From contig CM077159.1 in the NCBI GenBank assembly GCA_039583875.1, positions 100,367,707 to 100,431,706 on the forward strand: a stretch of DNA of 64,000 nucleotides, read 5' to 3'. This stretch comes from Platanthera guangdongensis (taxonomy: Eukaryota; Streptophyta; Magnoliopsida; Asparagales; Orchidaceae). Every line of letters begins with the position of its first letter. The stretch's first letter is position 1. The notes below the pieces were generated by a model. That model saw only the letters and a list, made by a program, of their open reading frames with translations. It did no database searches and was not told the DNA's origin. Below are positions 38,377-59,938 of the stretch, in pieces. The translations under genes were made by a program, and so were the position numbers.

Positions 38377-40687
38377 TGTAACACCCCTATCCGTCACATA
38401 GCATATAGCAGTAGGTCCGGCCGGGGCCCGACGCCGTATGCCACAGACAGACCGGGTGGTTACTTATGGAAACCATCCAACCAATCTCAACGTCCTACAC
38501 AGAGCATTCTAGCGGAAGCAGTTTATAAAAGTTGAAATAAAGAACTCAGCATTAGAGCATGAATGTCCACTAGTACAGAATAGGAATGTTATACAAAATA
38601 CCCAAAATAAGCCTTAAGGCCTTACAAAATGTTTCACTTCCAATTGCATGTTTTACAAACCACGGCACGCAGGCCGGTCACGCATGAATAAAGCAGTAAA
38701 CACTTCCAAATAGGCCTTCAAGGGCCGGCTTCGCATTCGGGCTTTAGCCCGCTATTGACCGCTTGGTCCATCTGCACCTGCAAGCAACAAACCACCGCAC
38801 GGTGGCACAACAAGGCAACGGTCAGCAATGCTGACCAAATTATAACGATCCCGCCCCCAACTCGGGGCGGCGATGCTCCTTCCCTGCATTTCATTAGCAT
38901 AAGCGAGCAATATATATACTTAGCCATTTTATCACAGACGTTGGCTCGCACGACCACACGCCCCGTGCTCTCAGGGCACATTCTCGGTGAACCGGTCGAT
39001 GTCACGTCAATTAAATCCATAGACATTCCGGACTCACCACCGCCACTTGGACGGCCAAACCTATGAGCAATTTGTCTTCTTGGCCTGGGTCACGACAATT
39101 TAAGTCATCAACCGCCAAAGACCATAATCTATGCCAACGGTAAGTGCCACGTTCCTTTAGGTCTCTTTAACCGAACGACATAGAATGGGTACGGTTCCAT
39201 CTAACCCGTGCTCACATTGCAACGACAATTTAAGCCATATGCGCGGGTCAAACTTCCACCGAGTCCCATATCCATCACAATTCACATAACCCGGTTATGT
39301 TCAAGTTGGCGCTCAGGCCACCAAGTTGGCAAGATCTCGTATCCGCCCAGTTTTCCGGGTGCACCTTTGGGTTAGTCCCCAAGTCTCCCTGCTGCAATCT
39401 ACCGGGTAGAAAACCCGAAAAACAACCAATAGCACGGAGTCTTCTCCGGCATTATGCAATGCAACATCACCGATCCAGACCAACATGTCCGGGTAGGCTT
39501 CACACATCATGCCTATGTCCGTTCTTGCTTACGGACTCTAAACAACGGGGACTTCACATATCTACCCGAAGGAACACCTCCAACTCTCCGCAAACTCGCG
39601 AGAGCGGGCTTCCTATGCAAAGAAAGAGAGCTACTCATGCTCAAGATGAGGATCGTTACCCTAGCGTTCCTCTTTGGCGCCATTGCAAAGTAATCGGATG
39701 AAAAGCACCGCACTAGCTTTGCCTCCGTGGATCCGGAGTCGGCTCGCGATTCGGAGCTTCGAAGCTCCTCCAATAGAGGGATCTAGCTCCTTCTTCCTCC
39801 CTTGTCTCTCCTCTCTCTCTAAGGTTTTAGAAAGATAACACTTGAGAAAAAGTGAGGGTTTCTAAGTCCAATCCCGGGTATATACCTTCAGGAACAACCC
39901 CCAGCCGTTGGATCTCAAAATAAGGAAACGAACGGCTTTGATTCGGGACTGAAATGCCCAATCTAGACCAAACACAGCCTGGCACACGCCCGTGTCCAGG
40001 GCCGTGTGCCTCATTTGCCGTCAAAATCAAATCACCTGGAACCTCACACGGGTATCGAACACTCCCGTGTTCGAGCTGACACGCCCGTGTTCCACCTGAC
40101 ACGGCCGTGTGGCCGGCCGTGTACCCCATCATTTTTCCCCAAAATCAACCCGAGCACTACACGGGTTCTAGGACACGCCCGTGTCCTTACCCGTGTCACC
40201 TCAACATGCCTGGACCCCAGGCCGTGTACACGGTCTCGACACTCGACACTTCGTCGAGCAAAGATCGTCGACCTAATGACACGGCCTTGAACACGCCCGT
40301 GTCCTAGGCCGTGTGCCTTGTCTCGACACATTGTCGACACTAAAGTGTCGACTTCCCGGGACGAGTGTCGACACGGGTCGACACGCCCTGCGACACCCCC
40401 GTGTCACAGGCCGTGTGCCATGACTCGACACTTCGTCGAAGCAGAGTGTCGACTTCGCGGCTAAGTGTCGACACGGGGTCGACACGCCCTGCGACACGCC
40501 CGTGTCGCAGGCCGTGTGCCCAGTCTCGACACAATGTCGAGACCAAAGTGTCGACTTCCCGACAGAGTGTCGACACAGGCTTGACACGCCCTAGGAAACG
40601 CCCGTGTCCCAGGCCGTGTGCCTGCTGCCAGAACCCAAACTGGCCCAAAACGTCCCCCTTTGCTCCTTTGAGTTTCGGGGCGTTACA
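38377..40687 (-). repeat. Gypsy-A 3' LTR (2311 bp)
   Basis: The plus-strand start is TGTAACACCCCTATCC and the end GGGGCGTTACA. In element sense, the U3 part (39930-40620 on the window) is an array of GACACGGGCGTGTC- and GTCGACAC-type palindromes. A TATA-like GGTATATACCC lies at about 39880. The ATG exon described separately (39683-39660) follows about 200 nt downstream. In this sense the LTR end resembles the Gypsy-B LTR end (GGGCCCCGG.CGGAC, then TATATG..ATGTGAC). Confidence 0.88.
39660..39683 (-). other. Gypsy-A LTR mini-exon: gag ATG plus seven codons and splice donor
   Basis: In element sense the LTR reads MAPKRNAR from ATG at 39683 and then GTAACGATC (donor G at 39659). Joined to the gag acceptor at 45352/45351 it would continue VTRSGVGPSE in the same frame. 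The equivalent exon in Gypsy-B has the same length (24 nt) and the same donor. In this copy it survives only in the 3' LTR, because the 5' LTR is truncated before it. Proposed from sequence; no transcript evidence. Confidence 0.6.
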
Positions 40688-43600
40688 ACTCTCCCTCTCT
40701 TAAAAGAATTTCATCCACGAAATTATATAAAGGAAAGACATGTACAGAACCAAAATTTGTATCTGAGCGGAATAACTCCGGATACTCGTCAAGCATAGTC
40801 TGCTCTCGCTCCCAAGAGAGCTCCTCACGACCGCAATTGTCCCACCGGACCTTGACCATCCTGATCTCTTTATTGCGTAGCCGCTTGACCTCCGAGTCCT
40901 CAATCCGCACGGGCTTGACCTTTGTCGTTAGCCCACTATCCACCGACACTTGATCAACCGCGATTACTAGCGTAGGCTCTTGCACCGCCTTCCGAAGCAC
41001 CGAAATGTGGAATATATCATGTAAACCACTTAGCTCCACTGAAAGCTTCAACCGATAGGCCGCGTCACCAACTCGCTCCAGAACCTTAAACGGTCCAAGG
41101 TATCTCGGGCTTAGCTTTTTCAATCGCCGCACCCGCGAGACACCCTTGAACGGCTTGATCTTTAAGTATACATAATCGCCCACAACGAACTCCACATTCC
41201 TGTGCTTGACATTATAGTACTTTGCTTGCCGGTCCTGAGCGATAAGCAACCTCTCCCGAATGGTTCGCACCAAAGAAGTAGCACCCTCCACTTCAGATCG
41301 CTTATACAACCTTGACTCACCCGTTTCTAACCAAGACAACGGCGTGCGACATTTTCTACCATATAGGGCCTCGAAAGGCGCCATCTGAATACTCGTTTGG
41401 TAGTTATTGTTGTATGCGAACTGCACCAAATAAAGGTGGTCTTCCCATTGCTTTCCAAAATCCAAGACACACATGCGAAGCATGTCTTCCATAGTTCTAT
41501 TGACCCTCTCGGTCTGCCCATCCGTTTGCGGATGGAAGGCTGTGCTGAATTTCAGCTTTGTTCCCAACATTTGCTGCACCAGCCTCCAATCATTGGACAT
41601 GAACCGCCCATCTCGGTCACTCACGATGCTGCGGGGCACACCATGAAGCCGTACTATATTATCCACATAAAGCTTTGCCAATTTCTCCACCGGATCATCC
41701 TTCCTATGCGGAATAAAATGCGACACCTTCGTTAATCGATCAACGACCACCCAAATGGCGTCGTTTCCCTTCTGCGACCTTGGCAAACCGTGCACAAAGT
41801 CCATAGAGATGTCGTCAAATTTCCACTCCGGAATAGGCAAGGACTTAAGAAATCCTCCCGGCTTTTGGCACTCCGCCTTCACCAAGGCGCAAGTTTGGCA
41901 CTTCGCTACGTATAGCGCCACATCCTTTTTCAAACCCGACCACCAAAACAGTTTCTTCACATCACGGTACATCTTCGTGCTTCCCGGGTGAATCGAGTAC
42001 TTGGTATGGTGTGCCTCGTACAACAACTCCACCCGCAAATTGCCCACACTTGGGACGCACAGACGACCGTCTTTCCAAAGCAATCCGTCCTCCACGACGA
42101 ATTGGGAATTTGACCCATCCAGAGCCTCTACCATGAACTGCTTCATATGAGCATCCATATCCAAAGCCTGCCGAATGCGATCAGCCAGGTCATATTGGAC
42201 TTCAGTCCAATTCAGAACTGCTTCAGCACTCGATTGCCTGTCCACACAAACAATTTCCAACACCTCCAACTCTCGCACCAACCGCTCATCATGCACCGAT
42301 AGCCAATTGGCTTGAGCTGGGGCTCGGTGACTCAACGCATCCGCAACCGCATTCCCTTTGCCAGGCACGTAGTGGATCTTGAATGTATAGTCCCACAGGA
42401 ACTCCATCCATCTACGCTGCCGCATATTCAGATCCTTCTGATCAATAAGATACTTCAGACTCTTGTGATCGGTGTAGATATCAATCTTCACACCGTACAA
42501 GTAGTGTCTCCACAGCTTCAAGTCAAAAATCACGGCCGCTAACTCCAAGTCATGGACCGGATAGTTCCTTTCATGCACTTTTAGCTGTCTCGAGCCATAA
42601 GCTATTACACTTCCGTGTTGCAGTAGCACGCAACCCAAACCGCTGCCCGAAGCATCACTATAAATCTCATAGCCTTCAGTCACACATGGCGAAATCAGCA
42701 CATGCACCGTGGTCAACCGACACTTCAACTCCTCAAAAGCTCGTGCGCACTCCGGCGTCCAAACGAACTTATGCTCCTTCCTCGTCAAAGTAGTGAGAGG
42801 TAACGCTATCCGCAAGAAGTTTTCTACGAAGGGCCTATAATAGCCGGCAAGCCCCAGAAAACTCCGGACTTCCGCTACTGTAACAAGCTCAGGCCACTCC
42901 CGTATCGCAACAATCTTCGCCGGATACACAGCAATACCCTCTCCACTTACTATATGCCCGAGGAACGCCACTGAGGATAGCCAAAACTCGCACTTCGAGA
43001 ACTTGGCATACAACTGATTTCTCCTTAGCATCTCCAACACCAAATGAAGATGCTTGAAGTGATCTTCCTCACTTTGCGAGTACACCAAAATATCATCGAT
43101 GAATACGATCACGAAATGGTCCAAGTACTCCCTGAAAGTCCTGTTCATCAAATCCATGAACACTGACGGCGCATTAGTCAGCCCAAACGGCATGATCGTA
43201 AACTCATAATGCCCGTATCTCGTACTAAACGCTGTCTTTGGGATATCACTCTCCCTTATTCGCAGCTGATAGTACCCAGCCTTGAGATCTAACTTCGAGT
43301 ACACCATCGACCCGACTAACTGATCAAAAAGATCATCAATCCGGGGGATCAGGTACTTGTTCTTCTCAGTCAGCTTGTTGAACTCCCGATAATCAATACA
43401 TAGCCTCAAGCTTCCGTCCTTCTTCTTAACAAAGAGGACAGGTGCGCTCCAGGGCGAAGAACTCGGGCGCACATACCCTTGCTCCAACAACTCTTGCAGT
43501 TGAACTTTCAGCTCCTCCATTTCCTTAGGCGCTAGCCGATAAGGAGATCGTGACACAGGCTTTGCACCTGGCAATAGGTCGATTGTAAAATCTATCTCCC

Positions 43601-44131
43601 GCTGAGGCGGGGCTCCAGGAAGATCTGCGGGGAACAAATCAGGGTATTCTGATACCACTGAAATGCAATCCAACACGGGCTTCGGCTTTGCAACCTCCAC
43701 TAGTGTAAAGAACAGTTCTGCTCCGGCAGGAACCACCTTCACCACCTGAAGAGCAGACATCAACATCTTGCTCGACCCCTTTAAGCCCGTAAAAGTCGTC
43801 TCACGACTTGCTCCCAGCTTGACTTCCTTGCTACCGCAATCTATATGGGCCTGCTGCTCCGAGAGCCAGTCCATGCCAAATATGACATCGAACTCCACCA
43901 ACGGAAGTAAAGACGCCCGCAGGTCGAACTCCTGCTCCCCAATACGAATCTTAACATCGCAGATCCTATCCGATCGCATCGAACACCCGTTGGGCAACAA
44001 TACATCCAACTTATCCTTCGCCATCGAAGAAGGGACTCCGATGCGTGTTATAAATCCTTCAGACAAGAAGGAGTGTGAAGCTCCCGTATCGAAGAGTGCT
44101 CGTGCCGGATTTTCACAAATCAATACAAATC
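40683..44131 (-). CDS. Gypsy-A pol: protease, RT, RNase H, integrase, chromodomain-like tail
   Basis: An open minus-strand frame of about 1148 codons after the proposed splice acceptor (the frame extends upstream to 44168 but has no ATG). Protease [34 protein letters not shown] and [12 protein letters not shown]; RNase [17 protein letters not shown]; integrase with [38 protein letters not shown] and [14 protein letters not shown]; then a [10 protein letters not shown] domain and a C-terminal [22 protein letters not shown] segment typical of Tekay-type chromodomains. All catalytic residues are present. The stop TAA (40683-40685) lies in the LTR and the last codons lie in the polypurine tract. 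It would be made as Gag-Pol from spliced RNA. Confidence 0.9.
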
Positions 44132-44207
44132 CTAAACAAGCAGTGGTAAGGTAACATGTGCATAACAAGTATTGAAAGAAATCGACTTGCTATAAATTAA
44201 ACCGTAC
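44132..44207 (-). other. Gypsy-A gag/pol intron (76 nt)
   Basis: In element sense, GTGACAG is followed by GTACGG, then T-rich sequence and GCTTGTTTAG, then GATTTGT. Removing 44207-44132 joins gag (DVVTG) in frame to protease ([16 protein letters not shown]), where related elements have an uninterrupted VTG...ARVLFD. If retained, Gag ends at TAA three codons into the intron and pol has no ATG. Gypsy-C has a GT-AG interval at the same codon. Confidence 0.75.
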
Positions 44208-45351
44208 CTGTCACCACATCGGCCTGTTTAATGGCCTCCTATTGGCCAAGATTGTAGACCCTTGGTTGGGCCGGAGCATAATGGGATGCGGTCGACTCCA
44301 CCGCCTTTCCCTTCTCTTCATAAGTAGCTCCCGGCTTTCTCTCGGACTTAGGACGTCCACTCCAACAGTCACGGGCAAAGTGCCCCGTCCTTCCACAAGT
44401 AAAACACGCGCCCGGGGTCCGACTCGTAGTCGCCCCAGAAGCGCCAGAAGGAGCTGGACCCGAAGTCCTATGCTTCTTGAAAGACCTCCGATAGCCGGTC
44501 TTTGAAGTAGTCGGCACTTTAAATTCAGATTTCTTCTCACCCATGCTTTTCTTTGCTTGTACATTCTTCATGTCCTTCTCCAAGGACCGGGAAGTATTGA
44601 CCAAGGTTAAGAAACCCTGCGTCATCGGCCCCGAAAGTAGTAGTCTCAACTCATCCCTCAAGCCTTCATAGAATCGATTAGTCTTGCGCTCCTCATCCAC
44701 GATGGTGGAGCTAGCATAACGACTCAGACGAGTAAACTCGTGGAGATATTCATCCACGCTCCTCTCACCCTGTAAAAACTTCAGGAACTCATTCTACAAC
44801 GCTATCTTCTGCGTCAAAGGGAGGTATCTAGCCAAAAATAATCTCGAGAACTCCTCCATCGAGACATCACCAAGTTGCCTACCTCTCAGTAAGTGCAGCT
44901 CCAATCCTTCCCACCACATCCTCGCTTCTCCGTCCAAAAGGAACGTAGCGATGGTGGTCATTTGCCACTCCTCCATCTCCGTCGCTGTCATGACTCTCTT
45001 CACCCTGGAGAGCCAGTCTTCAGCCTGAGATGGGGTTCCCAACCCCGAGAATAACGGAGGGTTAAAGCTCATTACATGCTTGAGCTGCCTCTCAGTAGCC
45101 CTCCTTGGCACCACCGGTTCCACAACCACTTGCTCCACTCTCCTTGGCTCGGCCTCTTGAAGAGGTTCCTGCTCCATCACAGGAGCGGGCTGCTGCGCTT
45201 GCCTTGCAAGATGCGCATTTATCACGACCAACACCGCTTCAGCCACCAATCGAATATTTTCAGCCGACAGAGGTGTTGTAGGAGCAACATCCAGTGCACT
45301 ACTAGCCTCAGAAACGCGACGTTCTGACGGCCCAACACCACTTCTGGTCAC
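44208..45351 (-). pseudogene. Gypsy-A gag, two in-frame stops
   Basis: The minus-strand frame begins at a GTG directly after an AG (45352-45353), read as VTRSGVGPSERR. The Gag core (DWLSRVKRVMTATEMEEWQ, ATFLLDGEARMWWEGLE, DEYLHEFTRLSRYASS, RKTNRFYEGLRDELRLLL) is followed by a zinc knuckle, CFTCGRTGHFARDC. TAG stops at 44794 and 44239 both sit where Gln or Glu is expected, consistent with single transitions in CAG. It is homologous to Gypsy-B gag throughout. Confidence 0.85.
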
Positions 45352-45562: not shown

Positions 45563-45674
45563 GTCTGATACCAAATTGTAATACCCCCTATCCGTCACAT
45601 AGCATATAGCAGTAGGTCCGGCCGGGGCCCGATGCCGTATGCCACGGACAGACCGGGTGGTTACTTATGGAAAC
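45563..45674 (-). repeat. Gypsy-A primer site and proximal part of 5' LTR
   Basis: 45563-45573 is the complement of TGGTATCAGAC (initiator tRNA-Met type). After a 3-nt spacer the LTR starts at 45577 (TGTAATACCCCC on the plus strand) and runs to 45674, where Gypsy-B is inserted. The last five bases, gaaac, are the target-site duplication. Confidence 0.85.
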
Positions 45675-47723
45675 TGTAACACCCCAAAGTTCTGGGTCCA
45701 TTTTAGCAAATTTGGGTTCAGGCATGGGTGACACGGCCTGCGACACGGGCATGTCGCAGGGCGTGTCAGGCCTGGGTTGTGTCGAGTCGTCAGGTCGACG
45801 AATTTTGCTCGATGATCGTCGAGTGTCGAGTGAGGACACAGCCTGTGACACGGGCGTGTCACAGGGCGTGTCAGTGGTCGTCGAACTCAGCTCGACGTCT
45901 TGAGCCAGGGCGTGTTTGCGGGACACGGGTGTGTCCAGGTGCACACGGCCTGGAACACGGGCGTGTCCAGGGCCGTGTGATTCTCGGGTGAAGTGGAGAT
46001 TGGGCTGTGTGAGTGACACGGCCAGCGACACGGGTGTGTCGGAAGGCGTGTCAGGTGACACGGCCAGCGACACGGGTGTGTCAGAAGGCGTGTCAAGTGA
46101 CACGGCCTGTAACACGGGCGTATCCCATGGCCGTGTACTGTTGGTTTTGAGTCGGTTGACTGCCGCTTAGAGGGACACGTCCTGTGACATGGGCATGTCA
46201 GGCCGTGTTTTAGCTTTTCTGGCCAAATCTGAGCCGTTTGTTTCCCTCTTCCTGGATCCGATGGTTGGGCTCTGTCCAGGTATTGTGAAGGCCGAGAAAA
46301 AGGGGGATTTAATCCCTCTTTTCATCTTCTTCTTCTTCTTCTTCATATATTCCAAGAAAGGCAAGAAGAAAGGCCTAAGGCAAGAGGGAAGGGAGGAGTC
46401 TACCAGCTGCTGGAGGAGCTGCGGAGTGCGGATCGAAGATCCGAGAGCGGATTCGTGAAGGCAGAGCCGAGGAGGTGATTTCCATCCAGCTACTTCATGG
46501 CGCCGAAGCGATCTTCAAGGGTAACGATCTCCTTCTTGGACATCGAAGTCCTTCCTTTATGCATGTGCTTGGAATCCTCCACCAAGAGGTTGATTTGCGG
46601 AAGTGATTCCTTTGTTGAGTCTGCATTTGGAGCCGGAAATATGGAGTACGGCATAGGCATGCTGTGTGAAGCTCCTGGTTATGATATGATCAATTGGTAG
46701 CACGCCTGGGGAGCTCGAGATAAACCCGGCCTGTTACACCACTAGGGTGGGTTGATCTAGTTAGGTAGGGATCGATTGGTGGCAATGCTTGGGGAGCCAA
46801 GTTAAACCCGGCTTGCTGCACCACATTGGTGGGTCGATCGGAATAGGAGGGGGGGTCGATGGGTAGACATGCCTGGGGAGCTTGGATAAACCCGGCGTGC
46901 TACACCACATGGTGTGGGTCGACCTGCTCTGGTTGTTATTGGATGTTGTGAGGTTGTACCTCTGAGTGGTTTGGGCGGGATGTCGCCAGCTTGCGAGACT
47001 GGTGGACTAGATCCGGTCAACCAAAAAGTTAAAACCTCGGATCGGCGGTGTATGACTGGTGGATTCTGGTACGCCAAGAAGGTGCCCTGAGTGCACGGAG
47101 CGTCTGGTGGATTCCAGCGTTTGTGATGTAATGTGTTTGCTAGCGGGATAAAGAAAATGATATACATATGCTGTTTGATGATACTTGATGATAGATGATA
47201 GCACTGTATACAGGGAATGAACCACTACCCCGGGTAGGGGGTAGGGTCGTTATAATGGGTCAGCCAAATGCTGAACGTTACTTTGTTTTTGGTGTTGGTT
47301 TGGATGTCTACTTGCAGGTGTTGTGGCGTGAAATGCATAAGTGGAAAGAATGGCTTGCTTGCTGCTATAGGCCCTTGAAGGCCATGCGAAGAGTTGTGTT
47401 TGGATTTCATGTGTGGCCAGCCTGCGTGCCGATGTACGAAATTGTTGATGTGTAAAGAGGAACCTGTAAGGCCATAAGGCCAGGGTGTGTGGGTTGTATA
47501 CATTCCTGGTGTTGTTATATATAAATGTGGTATTTATATATTGGTGGACATTCTGGTTTGAGTTCATGCTAACATAAAAATATGCTGCGCTAGAATGGAA
47601 TGAGTTAAGGATACGCATAGATTTTGATTCCCGCACGTAATTTCTTCTCTTGTCTGTGATATATGGCGTGGGGCCTCGGCCGGACCCACCGTTATATGTC
47701 ATGTGACAGGTGGGGGCGTTACA
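45675..47723 (+). repeat. Gypsy-B 5' LTR
   Basis: 2049 bp. 45720-46210 is an array of GACACGGCCTG, GACACGGGCGTGTC and GTCGACGA palindromes. A GATTTAAT element at about 46305 is at the position of the Gypsy-A TATA-like box and is followed by a CT-rich initiator-like region. The ATG mini-exon is at 46497-46520. The last 150 bp match the Gypsy-A LTR end. Confidence 0.9.
46497..46520 (+). other. Gypsy-B LTR mini-exon: gag ATG plus seven codons and splice donor
   Basis: Reads MAPKRSSR, followed at 46521 by GTAACGATC. Splicing to the AG at 47888-47889 joins it in frame to VARDGAGPSEPQ of gag. Unspliced, this ATG opens a 67-codon frame ending at 46700. The same exon occurs in the 3' LTR at 50218-50241 and, with silent and conservative changes, in Gypsy-A. 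Confidence 0.65.
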
Positions 47724-47889
47724 AAGTGGTATCAGAGCCAGGTTTAGATTGTTTGGGAGGAGAGAACATAATTGAACTCATGAATGTCCGCTAGGAATGT
47801 ATGTCATGCACATGATGTGCGTGAGTGTGTAGTCAATGTAGCAGTACCGTTATGATTTGATGTATTAATGGTGTTCTGTACATTGATAG
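46521..47889 (+). other. Proposed Gypsy-B intron 1 spanning U5 and the primer site
   Basis: 1369 nt from GTAACG to ...TTCTGTACATTGATAG, with a branch-point-like TATTAAT about 30 nt before the AG. It contains the end of the LTR and the primer binding site, so a spliced RNA could not be primed by tRNA-Met. Inferred from frame, conserved boundaries and the lack of an ATG at the start of the conserved gag frame. Confidence 0.6.
47727..47739 (+). promoter_or_regulatory. Gypsy-B primer binding site (initiator tRNA-Met)
   Basis: TGGTATCAGAGCC, three bases after the 5' LTR, is complementary to the 3' end of plant initiator tRNA-Met. Confidence 0.92.
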
Positions 47890-49053
47890 GTGGCGAGGGA
47901 TGGAGCTGGGCCGTCTGAGCCCCAGCGGTCTGATGAGAGTGCAGCACCCGTGGAAGTGCCTATGCCTCCCTCGGCAGAAGCCATACGGGTGGTAACGGAG
48001 ACAGTGCTTGCAGTGTTACAGACACAACCAACTGGACAGGCAAGGCCTGGTGCAAGGCGAGAGCATGCTGCAGTGGTGGTGGAGGCGCAAGCAAGTGACG
48101 ACTCATTGACACGTTTTATGCACTTTCATCCACCTACGTTTGGTGGAGCGCTTTCACCAAGGCAGGCAGAAGATTGGTTGGCAAGGGTAAAAAGGATCCT
48201 AACTGCAATCCGGACGGTAGAGGAGCAGAAATTGACGTTGGCCACTTTTCTGTTGGAAGGCGATGCGAGATTATGGTGGGATGAAATTGAAGTGCATCAC
48301 TTGGCAGGTCGAGGTTTAACCGAAGTTTCAATGGATGAATTCTCCCAAATATTTTTAGCCAAGTATGTGCCGGTGTCGCAGAGGATTGCGATGGAAAATG
48401 AGTTTCTCCGTTTGGTGCAGGGTGAGCGAGATATTGATACCTACCTGCATGAGTTTACGAGATTGGGGAGATATGCGGGATCTACCTTCGCGGAGGAAGC
48501 ACGAAAGACAAATCGGTTTTATGAAGGATTGCGGGATGAATTGAGGTTGGCACTTCCGAGTTCAGTGATCCAAGGCTTCCAAGCGTTGGTTGATACTGCC
48601 CGTGCCTTGGAAAAGGATATGAAGCGAGTCCAAGAGAATAAGAGACTGGTAGCGGAAAAGGCAGAATCTAAAGTGCCGCAATCAGATCAATCGGAGTTCA
48701 GATGACGAGAGAAGAAAAGATTTAGGCCTACGGAATCAACGCCGTCGACTGTTTCTTCGGGGGCTACTTATGGGCCAGGACAGATTGATACGCGTATATG
48801 CTATAACTGTGGGCAGCAAGGACATATAGTAAAATTCTGTTGGAATGCCCCTCCAGGGAGTGAGAAAAAGACAGGTGCGTCATATGAAGAAAAGGGTAAA
48901 GCAGTGGCCGAATCATCTGCACCCCGGACGCAACCTCGATTTCATGCTATGGAAGTGCAAGAGCCGCAAAGCTCAGTTGGTGAAATTCAGCCTCGGGTGT
49001 TTAATTTGTCTCTTAATCGTGAATTTCAAAATTGGGAGGCTGAGCGGAAGTGA
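47890..49053 (+). pseudogene. Gypsy-B gag, one in-frame TGA
   Basis: One plus-strand frame of 387 codons beginning GTG (VARDGAGPSEPQ) directly after an AG. It has Gag core motifs DWLARVKRILTAIRTVEEQK, LEGDARLWWDEIE, DTYLHEFTRLGRYAGS and RKTNRFYEGLRDELRLAL, and a zinc knuckle CYNCGQQGHIVKFC (48799-48840). A single TGA at 48703 sits where CGA (Arg) is likely. It ends NREFQNWEAERK-stop, close to where Gypsy-A continues to the gag/pol intron; pol and that intron are absent. The first internal ATG would remove the conserved GAGPSE segment. Confidence 0.85.
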
Positions 49054-49372: not shown

Positions 49373-51444
49373 TGTAACACCCCGAAGTTCTGGGTCCATT
49401 TTAGCAAATTTGGGTTCAGGCATGGGTGACACGGCCTGGGACACGGGCGTGTCGCAGGGCGTGTCAGGCCTGGGTTGTGTCGAGTCGTCAGGTCGACGAA
49501 TTTTGCTCGACGATCGTCGAGTGTCGAGTGTCGAGTGTCGAGTGAGGACACGGCCTGTGACACGGGCGTGTCACAGGGCGTGTCAGTGGTCGTCGAACTC
49601 AGCTCGACGTCTTGAGCCAGGGCGTGTTTGCGGGACACGGGTGTGTCCAGGTGCACACGGCCTGGAACACGGGCGTGTCCAGGGCCGTGTGCTTCTCGGG
49701 TGAAGTGGAGATTGGGCTGTGTGAGTGACACGGCCAGCGACACGGGTGTGTCGGAAGGCGTGTCAGGTGACACGGCCAGCGACACGGGTGTGTCGGAAGG
49801 CGTGTCAAGTGACACGGCCTGTAACACGGGCGTGTCCCATGGCTTTGTACTGTTGGTTTTAAGTCGGTTTACTGCCGCTTAGAGGGACACGGCCTGTGAC
49901 ACGGGCGTGTCACAGGGCATGTCAGGCCGTGTTTTAGCTTTTCTGGCCAAATCTGAGCTGTTTGTTTCCCTCTTCCTGGATCCAATGGTTGGGCTCTGTC
50001 CAGGTATTGTGAAGGCCGAGAAAAAGGGGATTTAATCCCTCTTTTCATCATCTTCTTCTTCTTCATGTTATTCCAAGAAAGGGAAGAAGAAAGGCCTAAG
50101 GCAAGAGGGAAGGGAGGAGTCTACCAGCTGCTGGAGGAGCTGTGGAGTGCGGAGCGAAGATCCGAGAGCGGATTCGTGAAGGCAGAGCCGAGGCGGTGAT
50201 TTCCATCCGGCTACTTCATGGCGCCGAAGCGATCTTCAAGGGTAACGATCTCGTTCTTGGACATCGAAGTCCTTCCTTTATGCATGTGCTTGGAATCCTC
50301 CACCAAGAGGTGGATTTGCGGAACTGATTCCTTTGTTGAGTCTGCATTTAGAGCCGGAAATATGGAGTACGACATAGGCATGCTGTGTGAAGCTTCTGGT
50401 TATGATATGATCAATTGGTAGCACGCCTGGGGAGCTTGAGATAAACCCGGCCTGTTACACCACTAGGGTGGGTTGATCTAGTTAGGTAGGGATCGATTGG
50501 TGGCAATGCTTGGGGAGCCGAGTTAAACCCGGCTTGCTGCACCACATGGGTGGGTCGATCGGAATAGCAGGGGGGTCGATGGGTAGACATGCCTGGGGAG
50601 CTTGGATAAACCCGGCGTGCTACACCACATGGTGTGGGTCGACCTGCTCTGGTTGTTATTGGATGCTATGAGGTTGTACCTCTAAGTGGTTTGGGCAGGA
50701 TGTCGCCAGCTTGCGAGACTGGTGGACTAGGTCCGGTCAACCAACAAGTTAAAACCTCGGATCGGCGGTGTATGACTGGTGGATTCCGGTACGCCAAGAA
50801 GGTGCCCTGAGTGCACGGAGCGTCTGGTGGATTCCAGCGTTTGTGATGTAATGTGTTTGCTAGCGGGATAAAGAAAATGATATACATATGCTGTTTGATG
50901 ATACTTGATGATAGATGATAACATTGTATACAGGGAAGGAACCACTACCCCGGGTAGGGGGTAGGGTCGTTATAATGGGTCAGCCAAATGCTGACCGTTA
51001 CTTTGTTTTTGGTGTTGGTTTGGATGTCTACTTGCAGGTGCTGTGGCGTGAAATGCATAAGTGGAAAGAATGGCTTGCTTGCTGCTATAGGCCCTTGAAG
51101 GCCATGCGAAGAGTTGTGTTTCGATTTCATGTGTGGCCGACCTGCGTGCCGATATACGAAATTGTTGATGTGTAAAGAGGAACCTGTAAGGCCATAAGGC
51201 CAGGGTGTGTGGGTTGTATACATTCCTAGTGTTGTTATATATAAATGTGGTATTTATATATTGGTGGACATTCTGGTTTGAGTTCATGCTAACATAAAAA
51301 ATATGCTGCGCTAGAATGGAATGTGTTAAGGATACGCATAGATTTTGATTCCCACACGTAATTTCTTCGCTTGTCTGTGATATATGGCGTGGGGCCCCGG
51401 TCGGACAGACCGTTATATGTCATGTGACAGGTGGGGGCGTTACA
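49373..51444 (+). repeat. Gypsy-B 3' LTR
   Basis: 2072 bp, collinear with the 5' LTR with scattered substitutions and small indels. It includes the second copy of the ATG mini-exon (50218-50241). Confidence 0.92.
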
Positions 51445-52127
51445 GAAACCATCCAACCAATCTCAACGTCCTACACAGAGCATTCTAGCGGAAGCAGTTT
51501 ATAAAAGTTGCAATAAAGAACCCAGCATTAGAGCATGAATGTCCACTAGTACAGAATAGGAATGTTATACAAAATACCCAAAATAAGCCTTAAGGCCTTA
51601 CAAAATGTTTCACTTCCAATTGCATGTTTTACAAACCACGGCACGCAGGCCGGTCACACATGAATAAAGCAGTAAACACTTCCAAATAGGCCTTCAAGGG
51701 CCGGCTTCGCATTCGGGCTTTAGCCTGCTATTGACCGCTTGGTCCAGCTGCACCTGCAAGCAACAAACCACCGCACGGTGGCACAACAAGGCAACGGTCA
51801 GCAATGCTGACCAAATTATAACGATCCCGCCCCCAACTCGGGGTGGCGATGCTCCTTCCCTGCATTTCATTAGCATAAGCGAGCAATATATATACTTAGC
51901 CATTTCATCACAGACGTTGGCTCGCACGGCCACACGCCCCGTGCTCTCAGGGCACATTCTCGGTGAACCGGTCGATGTCATGTCAATTAAAGCCATAGAC
52001 ATTCCGGACTCACCACCGCCACTTGGACGGCCAAACCTATGAGCAATTTGTCTTCTTGGCCTGGGTCACGACAATTTAAGTCATCAACCACCAAAGACCC
52101 TAATCTATGCCAACGGTAAGTGCCACG
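51445..52127 (-). repeat. Gypsy-A 5' LTR, second part
   Basis: Starts with the GAAAC duplication and then CATCCAACCAATCTC, continuing the Gypsy-A LTR from the break at 45674. It stops at ...GTGCCACG, where Copia-3 begins. In the intact 3' LTR the sequence continues TTCCTTTAGG at 39152. Confidence 0.9.
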
Positions 52128-53267
52128 TGTTGGGTTTCTCTATGAGGATGGCACAACACTTGTGCACGCAGCGGAAAAATAAAATATCAAGAAAACCCAA
52201 AAGAAATTGGATCGGGCCATGATAGTTGAATCAAGAAGTTAACATATAACTTAGGCAAAAATTACCTCGGTGGCATTGAGTAACAACTCAACGGAGATGC
52301 TCCAAGCTTCATGTTCTTGCTGGTGGCGAGTTCTACGTGAAATGATGTCCACGTCTCTGCAGAAATCCACACGAGCGGGAGAACGCCGATCTTTCCGTCG
52401 CACGGAAAATCGAGAAGGAGAAAGACCGCACCTTGCTTTCCCACAGACTGCTAGGTTTGCGCCAGGGATTGAAACGCCAGCGACGATCGCCGGAGAGGAG
52501 GAGGTCGACGGAGCGAACACGGCGGCGGAACCTTTCCGTCGGCGGGATTCGGGATCGGCAGAATGAAGGGCAGAACGGCTTCCGTCGATTTCGATTTGAT
52601 CGGCTGCCAAAAGCGTTAAGCATAACTCCCGAAAACCCTAAGTGTCCCTTTTATACCGAAGGCATAAATAGACTTAGGTTTATCGCTATCCGCAGACCAC
52701 CCAGAAAAATAGGGTCCCAGAATCGGCGAGAATCAGCGACAATCGGCGAGAATCATCAAGCAGATTCGGCGAGAATCATCAAGCAGATTCGGCGAGAATC
52801 AGTCGGCGAGTAACACCTAGGATCGGCGAGAATCAGAGTACAATACTCGACGATTCTCGCCGAACGCGGAGTGGACTATAATCGTCGACCGTTGACCTGC
52901 GGTCGACGATTCTCGTCAATCGTCGAGAATCATAGTAACGATTCTCGTCGATCAGCGAGAATCAGAGAACCATTCTCGACGATTCTCATCGATCAGCGAA
53001 AATCAGAGAACCATTCTCGACGATTCTCGTCGACCTTCAGTCGACTATTCTTACTAGTCCTTCAGGGCAACATTTGCCCAACCCGATGATTCTTTAAGGC
53101 AACACTTTGCCCATAAACCCATTCAGGTCGGTGATTGGTAACCTTTACCAACACAGTCAATCATCCAACTTCTCCACATCTCTTATGTGCGACCCTGCAG
53201 ACTCATATCGCGTTGGCAGTGAGATTACATGTTTGACCACTTTCAGATCACCATGGTAACTCCAACA
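52128..53267 (-). repeat. Copia-3 3' LTR (1140 bp) and polypurine tract
   Basis: TGTTGGGTTTCTC to AACTCCAACA. 52690-53040 is an array of CGATTCTCG/CGAGAATC palindromes. In element sense a TATA box (GGTATAAAAGG, 52657-52647) is followed by a 119-codon frame (MAADQIEIDGSR..., 52610-52251) also open in the other LTR. The polypurine tract complement GATTCCCACTTGAT adjoins at 53268-53281. Confidence 0.9.
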
Positions 53268-53281
53268 GATTCCCACTTGAT

Positions 53282-54250
53282 CTTTAAAGTATCAAACCAA
53301 AAACCTCACAAACAATGAGCGGCATCTAGCAATGCATCATTGCTCCCCAAGCAATAAGAGTTTATAACTCATAAGCCTTTATGACCAATGTATCAACGTT
53401 GTCTTTGTCCCTTTATCCCTTACATCCGGAAAGAACTAGAGGCATGGACCGTGTCACCCTCGTAATAGCTCAATCCAAGTTTCTTGATCCAGGACGGACT
53501 TCTAGAGAATGGTGAGTCCAATATCACATATTGACTCAACCAAGCATGGCCATGCATTTCTCAGTCCAGTTCCATCAAGGGGCCCATGGATGCAACTCCT
53601 GTCATACAGAAGGACAAATCCCATATCTGATCACACACAAATACCCAAATGATTCGTAACATGCCCAACAACCACCCTTATCATCAACCTTTCTCAAGGA
53701 AGACTTTAGATGGCATCAAAGCACGCTCTTCCTCACTTGATGAATGCTGTGACTTCAGGTCAAAGGACCACAACACCATTGTCAATTGAGACCTACTCGT
53801 GACACGATTGGATGACAATCCATAGAGTAATCTCAGGTTGGGTCTGTCCAGTACAACTTGTTCACTAACAAGTACCCACGTGATGACTTGATATCACAAT
53901 ATCATGACCTGTGAGAACCTGTCATCAGTCAACGCACGTGCTAGCCTTCATGTACCATCATCACCCTTAGCTTCTATGATGATACTCGACCAGGGACCTT
54001 TTAAGAATGAAGCTTCAAATAAATCATAGGCTCTCACATTCAAGTCACGTACTTGATGTCCCATGGAAGCAAACATTCTAAGGGTATCTATTATGTTAAC
54101 ATTTAACTATCATATAGAAAGAAAAACTCATAATAAAAGAACTTGCCATTAATTGTAAAAGAAAAACTAGGTACAATGTTCATCATATGAACAAATGGCC
54201 AACAAAATACAAGTTTACATGCAATCCACAAGATTCTCACTAGAGTTGAT
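53282..54250 (-). other. Copia-3 3' untranslated region
   Basis: About 970 bp between the pol end and the polypurine tract, with no coding signature recognised. Confidence 0.6.
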
Positions 54251-57200
54251 CATTTAGGTATCGTATACCCATCGATCTAGTATGACCATCATGCTTTCTC
54301 TGCGCGAGAGGCTTTGTCAGTATATCCGCAATATTCTCCTCAGTCGGCACTCTGCAAATGTTTACATCTCCTCATTCGACAATCTCACGAATAAGATGAA
54401 ACCGCCGAAGTATGTGCTTGGAGCGCTGATGGGATCTAGGTTCCTTAGATTGTGCAATTGCACCATTGTTATCACAGTAGAGAACTACGGGACCAACAAT
54501 GGTAGGAACTACATCAAGCTCGCCGATGAATTTCCTAATCCATACAGCCTCCTTCGCCGCATTAGCTGCGGCGATATACTCGGCCTCTGTTGTAAAATCA
54601 GCAACTGTCTCTTGCTTGGAACTCTTCCAGCTCACAGCTCCTCCATTCAGGCAAAACACAAAACCTGACTGAGACTTGGAGTCGTCTCTATCAATTTGGA
54701 AGCTAGCATCCGTGTAACCACTTACAACGAGCTCTTCCTCTCCACCATACACCAAGAACACATCCTTAGTCCTTCTCAAGTACTTCAGGACATTCTTGAC
54801 TGCAATCCAGTGACACTCACCGGGGTCTGACTGATACCTGCTAGTCATGCTCAAAGCAAAGGAGACGTCGGGTCGAGTACATAACATCGCGTACATGATT
54901 GATCCAATTGCCGAAGCATATGGAATCAACTTCATGCGGTCCTTGTCTTCACAAGACTTTGGACACTGGTCCTTTGAGAGATTCACACCATGAGATATGG
55001 GCAAAAATCCTTTCTTGGACTCAAGCATGTTGAACCGCTTCAACACCTTTTCGATGTACGTACTCTGGGTCAAACCTAGCAACTTCTTCGATCTATCTCT
55101 ATAGATCTTAATACCGAGTATGTAAGTCGCTTCACCCAGATCCTTCATTGAAAAGCAGTTCCCTAGGTTGTTCTTAACAACTTTAAGGTAGGAATGTCAT
55201 TCCCAATCAACAGTATGTCATCTACATACAATATCAGGAAGACAACAATGCTCCCACTGATTCGCTTGTAAACACAAGGCTCATCTTCATTCTTGATGAA
55301 ACCAAACTCTTTGATTTTCTCATCAAAACGAAGATTCCAACTTCGAGAGGCCTGTTTCAGTCCATAGATGGACTTATTCAGCTTGCATATTTTAGTGGCT
55401 TCATCTGGGGATACAAAACCCTCGGGTTGTGTCATATACACTTCCTCAAGGAGGTTTCCATTAAGGAAAGCTGTTTTGACATCCATCTGCCAGATCTCGT
55501 AGTCATAATACGCAGCAACAGCAAGCAATATCCTTATGGAGTTTACCATGCAATAGGGGAAAAGGTCTCATCATAGTCAATACCATGAATTTGCTTGAAA
55601 CCCTTAACCACCAGTCGCCCTTTGAATGTCTGTACATTCCCATCCATGTCGGTCTTCTTCTTGAAGACCCACTTGCACCCTATGGGTCGTACCCCTTCAG
55701 GTGGTTCCACCAAGTTCCAAACTTGGTTTGCATACATGGAGTCCATTTCGGATTTCATAGCCTCAAGCCATTTGTCGGAGTCCTGTCCATGCATAGCCTC
55801 TTGGTAGGTTGTTGGTTCATCATCATGATCCATAAGCAACACATTACCTATTTGAGTCACGAGAAATCCGTATCTCTCAGGCTCAAACCTTGGTCTACCA
55901 GATCTACGTAGGACTTGTGTTCCTTGAGCAGGTTCTCTAGCTACAACATCTTGTAGTCCGGTCTCAGAATCCAATTCCGGTTCATTCACTACATGTGGTT
56001 TTTGAACTTCTTAAAGCTCTACCTTTTCAGTCTTTCTTGATAAGAACTCTTTCTCCAAGAAGACACCAGTCCTTGCGACAAACACTTTGCCCTCAGACGG
56101 TAGGTAAAAGTAATACCCTTTCATTTCCTTAGGATATCCCACCAGATAACATTTATCCGATTTGAGTTCCAGCTTGTCAGGCATTTGACGTCTCACGTAT
56201 GCCTCACAGCCCCAAATTTTAATGAACGACATACTAGGACGCTTCCCAGTCCATATCTCATATGGTGTCTTCAGAACCGTTTTCTTTGGAGCGCGATTCA
56301 ATGTCATTACAGCAGTCTCTAAAGCAAAACCCCAAAAGGAAACAGGCAAGTCTGCATGACTCATAATCGAACGTACCATGTCTAACAGAGTACGATTTCT
56401 CCTCTCAGACACACCATTATATTATGGTGTTCTAGGTGGAGTGAGCTGTGATACAATACCACACTCTTTCAGATGATCACGGAACTCATGACTCAGGTAT
56501 TTGCCACCTCGATCAGATCGGAGTGCTTTAACCCTTTTACCCAACTGGTTTTCTACTTCATTCTTGAACTCTTTGAACTTTTCAAAGGTCTCAGATTTGC
56601 ACTTCATAAGATGCACATATCCGTATCTACTGAAATCATCAGTAAATGTAACAAAGTAGAAATACCCACATCTAGCCATGGAACTCATGGGTCCGCATAC
56701 ATCACTATGTACAACACCCAAGAGATCCTCAGCCCTCTCAGTATAACCAGTGAAAGGAGCTTTAGTCATCTTGCCTAACAAACAAGATTCGCATCGCTCA
56801 AATGATTCATAATCAAATGAGTCCAAAAGTCCATCTCTATGGAGTTTGGATATGCGCTTCTCGTTGATATGGCCCAAACGACAATGCCAGAGAAACGTAG
56901 GGTTCGAGTCATTTGTTCTTAGTCTTTTATTATTTTCAACATTACAGATCAGATGGTCCAAGTTCAAAACATAAAGACCATTAAACAATTGGGCTACAAC
57001 ATAACAAACATCATTCTTAAATATAGAACAACAGTTGTTCTTAATTATAAAAGAAAATCCAATCATGTCCAAACATGAAATAGATATAATGTTTCTAGTT
57101 ATGGCCGGAACAAAATAACAATTATCTAGTTCTATTACAAGCCCACTGGGCAAAGAAAGACGGTGAACCCCGATGGCTACAGCAGCAACTCTTGCTCCAT

Positions 57201-57330
57201 TGCCGACACGGAGGTCCACCTCCCCTTTACTCAGCAATCTTCTCCTTCCTAGTTCCTGCACATTTGTACAAATGTGATAACCACATCCGATATCCAATAC
57301 CCAAGATGAAGGAGCAGAAAGGTTTATCTC
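54251..57330 (-). pseudogene. Copia-3 pol (protease, integrase, RT, RNase H), broken
   Basis: Protease WVLDIGCGYHICTN, where Ile replaces the catalytic-loop Thr of DTG; GAG-pre-integrase WHCRLGHINEKRI with CESCLLGKMTKAPF; integrase FVTFTDDFSRYGYV, RSDRGGKYLS and NGVSERRNRTLLDM, with a TAA (56422) in the usual TPQ.NGV; RT WVFKKKTDMDGN, WQMDVKTAFLNGNLLEEVY and LILYVDDILLIGND; RNase H SSKQETVADFTTEAEYIAAA, ending GIRYL near 54253. Stops at 56422 and 56011 and frame changes near 55545 and 55160 inactivate it. Confidence 0.9.
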
Positions 57331-58197
57331 TATAACGTGAATATTTGAAGCAGAAGTCATACCTCCCTTCAATTTCTGCAGACCTTCAATGTACGAAGGA
57401 CAGTTCCTCCTCCAATGACCAGCCTTGCCACAGTGGTGGCATTTCCCTTCCTTCACCGTGCTTTTCTTTTTCATCAGTGCAGAAGACTTGGGCTCAAGAT
57501 ATGACTTAGGTCCCACCTTCGTCTTCTTAGAGCCCTTGGCCTTGCCCTTGCCCTTATGCACCATCAGTATGGGGCTGGCAGGCTTGGCCTTCTTCATGTT
57601 GATTTCGGCAGTTCTCAACATGCCTAGGAGTTCGGGCAGTGTCTTGTCTATTTCATTCATGTTGTAGTTCAAGACGAACTGCTCATAACTGTCCGGCAAC
57701 GATTGCAGGATCAGATCTGTGGACAACTCTTGACCAAGAGGAAAACCTAGCCTTTCAAGGTTCTCTATATACCCAATCATCTTGAGTACGTGAGTCCCTA
57801 CTGAGTCTCGAACTCCCATCTTGCACTGAAACAACGCTTTTATGACGTCGAACCTCTCTTGACGAGCTTGCCCTTGAAACATTTTCTTGAGATGCTCGTC
57901 AATCTCCTTGCACCCCATGTTCTCATGTTGCTTCTGAAGCTCAGAGTTCATAGTGGCAAGCATAAGGCATTCGACATCTAAAGCATCATCAGTATGCTTC
58001 TTATAAGTATCCTTCTCAGCACGGGAAGAGTTCCTGGTCGGCACCTCGGGGGCTTCTTCTTCCAAGACATAGAGCTTTCGCTCTTGCCTGAAAACAATTC
58101 TCAGGTTACTGTACCAGTCCATGTAATTAGTCCCACTGAGCTTATCCTTCTCAAAGATGGCTCTCAGAGACAAAGTGGAGTGTGAAACACTTGCCAT
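57331..58197 (-). pseudogene. Copia-3 gag, open frame joined to a broken pol
   Basis: ATG at 58197 (MASVSHSTLSLRAIFEKDKL), core NYMDWYSNLRIVFRQE, LQSLPDSYEQFVLNYNMNE, a Lys-rich linker and a zinc knuckle CHHCGKAGHWRRNC at about 57390-57432. The frame runs without a stop into protease and integrase down to 56422 (591 codons), so Gag itself is intact. It belongs to a Gag-Pol single-ORF design, so Gag would be released by the protease. Confidence 0.85.
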
Positions 58198-59175
58198 GGA
58201 ATTCTACAAGAATTTATGCAGAATAAAATCAGTACCAAAATTTCAAATACAATTATTTTAATTTGGACTTCAATTAAAACACTCCCACTATTTTATTCGA
58301 AATGATAGCCCTCACTAACAATTCAGAGAGTTCATGCGAGCTACTCTCTTAGTGGACAAGATCCGTATTTCACCAACACAATGAGTCAGTTTTGGCTTTC
58401 CTCTCACGATGCGATTATTTAGGTAGGCAACGCTTGCCAATTGCATCCTCATGCAATTCTTGTATGGTTGGTGAATAACTCCTTATTCGCATCCATCATA
58501 TGGTGCATGCCAACCCTATGCCTCTAGGCACTCAACCTTTGAGGTCACCTAGTTAAGTTGGACCCGATGTCGACACTGGGATATCACAATTATCCGCTCG
58601 CACCCTTACCAAGATAGATTAATGCACCTTGCTTTGGCAAGCCCACACTTCATCGATCGAGGCAGGAAGAGTGTCATCCATCGGAAGGCATCCGAACACT
58701 TAATATTTGATGAAGGGATTTTGATTATAGGTTAACAGTTAACCATGATCAACATTTGATCAATGTGCACATCCAAAGAAAAACAATATCTAAACCACAT
58801 GCATCCCTTATGTGCACATCCTGACACCATCAACAATTGATAGAAGGAAGGGCTAAATCTGAACATCCGGAAACTTCCAAATCCTCAGATTTACATGCAT
58901 TGGACAAAGGCAAAGACAACTCAACTTAAAGCAGTAGACAAGCTCATCTCTCTATGTTGGATTCAAAATCCAAAACAAACTCAAGGGATGGTTACTGCTA
59001 AGGAGACTACAATTTCTAACAATTAGAAATTTCCACGCAATTCCAGAAGTTCTTGGCGGGGTGCCAAGATTAAATCTAGACATTTAGAACACTTTTAAAT
59101 CCCTAGGTTTACACGCACTGGAATAACAAAACTTCCAATACAACAATCATGGCCGAAACCTGGCTCTGATACCAC
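58198..59175 (-). other. Copia-3 leader and primer binding site
   Basis: About 960 nt of leader without a recognised gene. At 59161-59174 the plus strand reads TGGCTCTGATACCA, the complement of TGGTATCAGAGCCA (initiator tRNA-Met primer site), one base from the LTR. Confidence 0.85.
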
Positions 59176-59938
59176 TGTTGGGTTTCTCTATGAGGATGGC
59201 ACAATACTTGTGCACGCAGCGGAAGAATAAAATATCAAGAAAACCCAAAAGAAATTGGATCGGGCCATGATAGTTGAATCAAGAGGTTAACATATAACTT
59301 AGGAAAAAATTACCTCGGTGGCGTTGAGTCTCAACTCAACGGAGATGCTCCAAGCTTCGTGTTCTTGCTGGTGGCGAGTTCTACGTGAAATGATGTCCAC
59401 GTCTCTGCAGAAATCCACATGAGCGGGAGAACGCCGATCTTTCCGTCGCACGGAAAATCGGGAAGGAGAAAGACCGCACCTTGCTTTCCCACAGACTGCT
59501 AGGTCCGCGCCAGGGATTGCAACGCCAGTGACGATCGCCGGAGAGGAGGAGGTCGACGGAGCGAACACGGCGGCGGAACCTTTCCGTCGGCGGGATTCGG
59601 GATCGGCGGAACGAAGGGCGGAACGGCTTCCATCGATTTCGATTTGATCGGCTGCCAAAAGCGTTAAGCATAACTCCCGAAAACCCTAAGTGTCACTTTT
59701 ATACCGAAGGCATAAATAGACTTAGGTTTATCGCTATCCGCAGACCACCCAGAAAAATAGGGTCCCAGAATCGGCGAGAATCGGCGACAATCGGCGAGAA
59801 TCATCAAGCAGATTCGGCGAGAATCATCAAGCAGATTCGGCGAGAATCAGTCGGCGAGTAACACCTAGGATCGGCGAGAATCAGAGTACAATACTCGACG
59901 ATTCTCGCCGAACGCGGAGTGTACTATAATCGTCGACC
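59176..59938 (-). repeat. Copia-3 5' LTR, truncated
   Basis: 763 bp, collinear with 52128-52890. It breaks off after ATCGTCGACC, where the 3' LTR goes on to GTTGACC. The promoter-proximal TATA box is retained but much of U3 is lost. Confidence 0.9.
59695..59705 (-). promoter_or_regulatory. TATA box of the Copia-3 5' LTR
   Basis: In element sense GGTATAAAAGT, about 25-35 nt before a likely transcript start and upstream of an AACCCTAA-type (telobox-like) motif complement at about 59683. Confidence 0.6.

Follow-up and report, generated by a model that had tools for sequence, protein, structure and literature searches.

A conserved open frame in the long terminal repeats of orchid gypsy elements is a candidate Gag start exon, predicted to be spliced to gag past the primer binding site

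We analyzed a window of 64,000 nucleotides from the orchid Platanthera guangdongensis (GenBank assembly GCA_039583875.1, contig CM077159.1, positions 100,367,707 to 100,431,706 of the forward strand; all positions below are those of the window), and in particular Gypsy-B, an element in which the start codon of gag may lie in the long terminal repeat (LTR). Gypsy-B is a complete LTR insertion, with two LTRs, a target duplication, a primer site and a polypurine tract all present. The 5' LTR (TG...CA; 45675-47723, plus strand) is 95.8% identical over 2076 aligned positions to the 3' LTR (49373-51444, plus strand), and the target site duplication GAAAC stands at 45670-45674 and again at 51445-51449. 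The primer binding site TGGTATCAGAGCC (47727-47739, plus strand) is of the tRNA-Met type, and a purine tract lies immediately 5' of 49373. In the window copy the internal part measures 1649 nt and holds gag without pol. A 504-nt LTR probe returned 40 scored genome candidates, from which 20 stretches were fetched; since 11 of these hold gag between two LTRs, with the short LTR open frames described below (mini-exons) 3.86-3.96 kb apart, we regard Gypsy-B as a gag-only family. The remaining stretches are partial, lone or overlapping copies. Tandem arrangements were also observed, each within one stretch: LTR-gag-LTR-gag-LTR in L028 and LTR-gag-LTR-gag in L024.

The proposed first exon is a short open frame in the 5' LTR, an ATG plus seven codons (ATGGCGCCGAAGCGATCTTCAAGG; 46497-46520, plus strand) that encodes MAPKRSSR; the 3' LTR carries its own copy at 50218-50241. 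Directly after this mini-exon, where the sequence from 46521 onward reads GTAACGATC, lies the putative splice donor GTAACGAT (46521-46528, plus strand). The proposed second exon (47890-48702, plus strand) is the gag frame, which begins with a GTG codon at 47890, matches Retrotrans_gag (4.6e-16) and runs, in this copy, to a TGA at 48703; the translation shows a CCHC motif beyond that match. The frame opens directly after an in-frame TAG (47887-47889, plus strand), the AG of which (47888-47889) is the proposed acceptor, so that without a splice no in-frame upstream ATG would be possible in Gypsy-B. This acceptor ranks fourth among 97 AG sites and has TTAAT branch-like words upstream. The predicted intron of 1369 nt (46521-47889, plus strand) comprises the remainder of the LTR, including U5, plus the primer site, and is T-rich (T fraction 0.30 vs 0.18 and 0.20 in the flanking exons). 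The initial annotation had proposed that MAPKRSSR joins gag in phase 0 and that splicing would remove the primer site; the coordinates agree, both sides are in phase 0, and TGGTATCAGAGCC at 47727 falls inside the proposed intron.

We then compared copies within the family, using 34 distinct LTRs (36 rows, two duplicates from overlapping stretches removed) and 17 distinct gag copies (18 rows, one duplicate removed). The ATG and the GTAA of the donor are each present in 34/34 LTRs, and the acceptor AG in 17/17 gag copies. MAPKRSSR is encoded in 30 of the 34 LTRs. Synonymous changes account for all of the mini-exon variants shared by 3, 3, 6 and 17 LTRs, one of the two present in 3 LTRs belonging to the single tandem locus L028; the four variants that alter a residue or introduce a stop are confined to 1, 1, 1 and 2 LTRs. 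An in-frame stop at 46476 precedes the mini-exon in all 36 rows, and its ATG is the first counting from 46380 in 31 of them. The leader at 46400-46496 contains no ATG, and a single TATA-like word, at 46344, lies upstream. The check suggested in the initial annotation, whether ATG, donor and acceptor are conserved among family members, was passed, and the layout recurs in two divergent families.

The second family, of gag/pol type, was retrieved with P0001 of P. zijinensis as the query (54% identity over 77% of Gypsy-B gag; 118 scored genome places), and 26 copies were read. Its layout is MAPKRN.R/GTAAYGAT (the slash marks the proposed exon boundary), with a typical mini-exon ATGGCGCCAAAGAGAAA...AGG/GTAAYGATTCTC. 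The mini-exon was located in 22 of the 26 copies; 21/22 have an intact ATG, and in 20/22 the GT stands in exactly the aligned column. The acceptor AG of ...TATAG/GTGACC occupies the exact column in 20/26 copies, is shifted by indels in three and is lost or unrelated in three. The distance from donor to gag is 1098-1527 nt, and the T fraction of the proposed intron is 0.31 (vs 0.21 and 0.22 in the flanks). GTG is the first gag codon in 23/26 copies, and no copy has a Met within gag codons 1-42. Over codons 1-24, the ratio of non-synonymous to synonymous substitution rates (dN/dS) is 0.26 (codon bootstrap 0.16-0.44), the other two frames giving 1.06 and 1.42 (19/26 copies), with an excess of third-position changes (p=0.0004; 20/26 copies). 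Extended to codons 1-42, which still precede the first Met, dN/dS is 0.31 vs 1.01 and 0.87. These ratios, together with the third-position excess, make it very likely that residues upstream of any Met are translated. For the mini-exon columns we used 21 of the 26 copies, as L035, L036, L039 and L047 have no mini-exon match and L053 is out of frame; between the second family and Gypsy-B, mini-exon dN/dS is 0.40 (1.30 and 1.24 in the other frames).

The third family is typified by P0007, a P. zijinensis Gag-Pol 67% identical to Gypsy-B gag, for which 31 scored genome places were found, most of them with about 1525 codons open; all 29 gag matches that were listed separately contain one or more TAGs. 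Both copies that were read have the layout ATGGCACCGAARCGATCGTCAAGG/GTAAYGAC (MAPKRSSR) and ...TTGTCCACCTTTAG/GTGACTCG. Against Gypsy-B, mini-exon identity is 0.88-0.92, with differences that are synonymous only, and exon 2 identity is 0.77 (L055). Identity is 0.55 over the 60 nt upstream of the mini-exon (L056), 0.61-0.69 over the 60 nt past the donor and 0.46-0.49 over the 58 nt before the acceptor, with random 60-mers at 0.45. Similarity between these two families drops at the proposed exon edges. Gag codons 1-19 have a dN/dS of 0.35 between them (the other frames give 0.67 and 1.29).

The donor form GTAAYGA is common to all three families, and donor, acceptor and phase, the features by which an LTR element with a spliced gag leader would be recognized, are kept across them. 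Mean donor identity between Gypsy-B and 21 second-family copies is 0.95. The layout, its conservation and the coding-type pattern of substitution in the part of gag that precedes any Met are read from the DNA itself. On this evidence, the conserved LTR open frame (MAPKR..R, then GTAAYGA) is very probably the start of Gag in three families, predicted to be spliced to gag past the primer site. The initial annotation had described the gag frame as conserved upstream of any ATG. That the frame opens at 47890 right after the AG at 47888-47889 stands; Gypsy-B itself, however, has an ATG at codon 25, so that the phrase amounts to codons 1-24, which are constrained in the second family (0.26), with 0.35 over codons 1-19 between Gypsy-B and the third family, but not within Gypsy-B.

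Several observations weigh against this assignment. With a plant splice matrix, the Gypsy-B donor comes 16th among 128 GT sites, a mediocre placing, and it is 13th for U1 pairing; three other AG sites score above the proposed acceptor. Gag codons 1-24 show no codon constraint within Gypsy-B, the ratio of non-synonymous to synonymous polymorphism (pN/pS) being 1.34, and an ATG lies within 110 nt upstream of gag in 7/21 second-family copies. Between Gypsy-B and the second family (16/26 copies), the donor is at 0.94 identity, and the mini-exon, at 0.71, contrasts little with its flanks (0.58 and 0.63), as does exon 2 (0.60) with the sequence before the acceptor (0.55). A scan of Gypsy-B against 21 second-family copies found 234 of 1679 windows that beat the mini-exon plus donor, and several other LTR blocks are as conserved as the mini-exon region. 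Within the second family, mini-exon dN/dS is 0.38, with other frames at 1.08 and 0.53, the latter in frame 2, and its bootstrap range of 0.14-1.1 (p=0.10) reflects an exon too short for significance. A search of the genome for the exact spliced-junction pattern, which covered Gypsy-B and the second family, gave no matches and carries no sensitivity estimate; an intron-less junction copy is not required by the splice reading. Finally, a MAPKR..R/V start is absent among the annotated proteins examined (gag searches with 3 + 1 proteins, and the best 120 of 7776 pol matches), and P0009 of P. guangdongensis is annotated with a Met at the first gag position.

Annotated proteins bear on the predicted N-terminus in other ways as well. 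The initial annotation had likened the joined Met-plus-basic N-terminus to that of plant Gag proteins, and first residues of the form M[A/P/V]P..[K/R] do occur in 16 of 123 retrieved proteins; among the others, many are melon copies whose annotation begins at an internal Met. P0032 from Tanacetum, among the best 120 of 7776 pol matches, starts with MAPKRTTRKR; these residues are contiguous in its annotation, and it was rejected as an instance of this junction. P0001 and P0004-P0009 are retrotransposon Gag or Gag-Pol frames filed as Platanthera hypothetical proteins, and their first exons are inconsistent.

We considered three other ways in which gag might be opened. It is improbable that unspliced RNA is translated into Gag from an internal Met, at codon 25 in Gypsy-B and at codon 43 in relatives, with the mini-exon acting as a conserved upstream open reading frame (uORF) or regulatory island. 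The in-frame ATG at codon 25 (47962-47964, plus strand) is kept in 16/17 Gypsy-B copies, and pN/pS over the following gag sequence is 0.15-0.45 (47962-48500; 1.08 over 48501-48702); the 24 codons before this ATG are unconstrained there, and Gypsy-B, considered by itself, could use Met 25. P0001 is, moreover, annotated from the codon-43 Met. Against such a start, the codon-25 residue is not Met in five aligned relatives, and the low second-family ratio over codons 1-42 (0.31 vs 1.01 and 0.87) lies before any Met that could serve. On unspliced RNA, 52 ATGs precede codon 25 (46400-47961), and a uORF would need neither to match gag in phase 0 nor to end at AGG/GTAA.

A spliced start from a different exon, either of U5 type ([M]AGLRAE/V or [M]TGLRAE/V) or of the kind annotated for P0006 and P0008, is quite unlikely. 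It draws on the P. zijinensis gene set, which according to the available text of its description combines de novo, homology and RNA-seq prediction (PMC9023349): P0006, P0007 and P0008 have differing annotated first exons, each of which gives way to gag immediately before the V of VTRSGAG or VTRSVAG, precisely at the gag acceptor. These three exons disagree with one another, and the ATG of the P0007-type U5 exon is found in 6/22 rows and is absent from Gypsy-B, as against 34/34 and 21/22 for the ATG of the LTR mini-exon. Hardly credible, in our assessment, is a non-AUG start on unspliced RNA, at the GUG at 47890 or a nearby codon. The GTG shared by Gypsy-B and most second-family copies would fit it, but L037 has TTG instead with a frame otherwise open over codons 1-42, scanning would need to bypass dozens of AUGs, and the LTR mini-exon with its synonymous-only shared variants would be left unexplained.

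Under the favored assignment of the Gag start to the LTR mini-exon, we infer splicing itself, a transcription start upstream of 46497 and a division of labor between two RNAs. Transcription would begin in the LTR, and part of the RNA would be spliced from 46520 to 47890, discarding U5 and the tRNA primer site. The spliced RNA would be the messenger for Gag (in the third family, Gag-Pol), giving a product with a Met-plus-basic N-terminus, and the unspliced RNA, with U5 and the primer site still in place, would serve as the template for copying. Unspliced, the mini-exon AUG opens only 67 codons in Gypsy-B, running into the proposed intron, and only 16 codons in 19/21 second-family frames; with its first AUG opening only a short frame, this RNA would not yield Gag. 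The mediocre donor would leave a fraction of the RNA unspliced. All three families have the same weak form, as though weakness here were favored. The copies that were read retain the intron, in keeping with copying from unspliced RNA only.

Other parts of the LTR and leader are conserved as well. Between Gypsy-B and the second family, the block at 47762-47800, just 3' of the primer site, ranks among the best conserved (about 0.85 mean identity in 32-nt windows); since it lies within the proposed intron, any signal for packaging or dimer formation located there would be confined to unspliced RNA. An LTR block at 46644-46675 reaches up to 0.87 in the same comparison. Also inside the proposed intron, the stretch from an acceptor-like TTGCTTGCAG/GTG (gag-side base 47318) to a GTAAGG about 150 nt on (47309-47466) is conserved and looked like a cassette exon. 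This middle-exon candidate was rejected, as its frames contain stops and indels and none of the three shows clear codon constraint (dN/dS 0.71, 0.83 and 0.59; 19 copies).

Gypsy-B sits inside the 5' LTR of a minus-strand relative belonging to the second family, given that matches to the LTR of a relative resume at 45674 and 51445. The gag of the minus-strand element (44242-45351, minus strand) opens after TATAG/ with VTRSGVGPSE and has a stop at 44794-44796. Its pol frame (40683-44189, minus strand) has Pfam matches for protease, reverse transcriptase, RNase H and integrase, and its 3' LTR contains the mini-exon MAPKRNAR/GTAACG (39660-39683, minus strand). Words of the ACACGGGCGTGTC type are abundant in the LTRs of both gypsy elements (40278-40663 and 45800-46160). 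Directly beyond the interrupted LTR lies a copia-type element (52128-59475), with LTR-like direct repeats at 52128-52427 and 59176-59475 and with gag_pre-integrs and rve domain matches at 56425-58203 on the minus strand.

By their domains, the relatives may resemble Tekay/Del chromoviruses as described in the available text of PMC6317226 (Neumann et al. 2019): they have protease, reverse transcriptase, RNase H and integrase. A chromodomain match (PF00385) at the integrase C-terminus is weak and sub-threshold (18.4 bits in the window relative and 13.2 in P0007; cut-off 25.1). Many other retrieved plant Gag-Pol proteins start M[A/P]P.. within the annotated frame rather than in an LTR exon. Gypsy-B, for its part, is similar to the non-autonomous TR-GAG elements, which also have two LTRs around a lone gag frame, with no pol in the window copy; in the available text of PMC9784723, however, neither a Gag start codon in the LTR nor a splice upstream of gag is described. 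A comparable splice-site layout is that of Diaspora, a soybean Ty3/gypsy element, for which donors were predicted in the long LTR and acceptors around the gag start, 1.4-2.2 kb apart. In contrast to Gypsy-B, Diaspora has its own gag ATG, and its splice sites are predictions of unknown relevance; as far as the available text goes, its authors stated that an intron upstream of gag had not been reported as of then (PMC1142308).

Alternative splicing also separates RNA pools in the plant LTR elements BARE1 and EVADE, but there, according to the available text, the splice is located within gag or downstream of it and increases Gag relative to Pol, and the gag start and primer site share one RNA (PMC3735527, PMC12786077). 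A short leader frame with a start codon is spliced to a distal frame for open reading frame IV of rice tungro bacilliform virus, a plant pararetrovirus, where the accessible account gives the product as P4 rather than Gag (PMC5902531). In Drosophila ZAM/Beagle, the ZAM Env has a short peptide exon upstream of gag, the product in the part of the source available being Env, not Gag (PMC12992720). A paper on centromeric retrotransposons (PMC3059260) makes no mention of a splice, an intron or a start codon. The component parts are therefore known, and we recognized no report of a gag start codon in the LTR joined by splicing, nor of an LTR Gag start exon whose use discards the primer site, in the literature searched, most subscription papers being outside it.

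For the orchid gypsy lineage as a whole, gag-pol elements included, we lean toward the view that Gag synthesis and reverse transcription are mutually exclusive on one RNA. If true, Gag or Gag-Pol would be made solely from a messenger without U5 and the primer site, and the RNA that can be copied would be unable to make Gag. Such elements could then show no cis-preference, their genomes would all be packaged in trans, and gag-only passengers, Gypsy-B among them, would be a natural consequence. As RNA-seq exists for both Platanthera species (21 samples, 9 from P. guangdongensis and 12 from P. zijinensis, according to the available text of PMC9023349), the splice question is directly testable. 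The proposed splice bears on the old question of how one retroelement RNA can be both messenger and genome. If the proposed Gag start is right, a splice with its donor in the LTR would divide the two roles in these elements. Full trans-dependence is then predicted, some of the length of very long LTRs would have an explanation, and the true Gag start of such elements would escape annotation.

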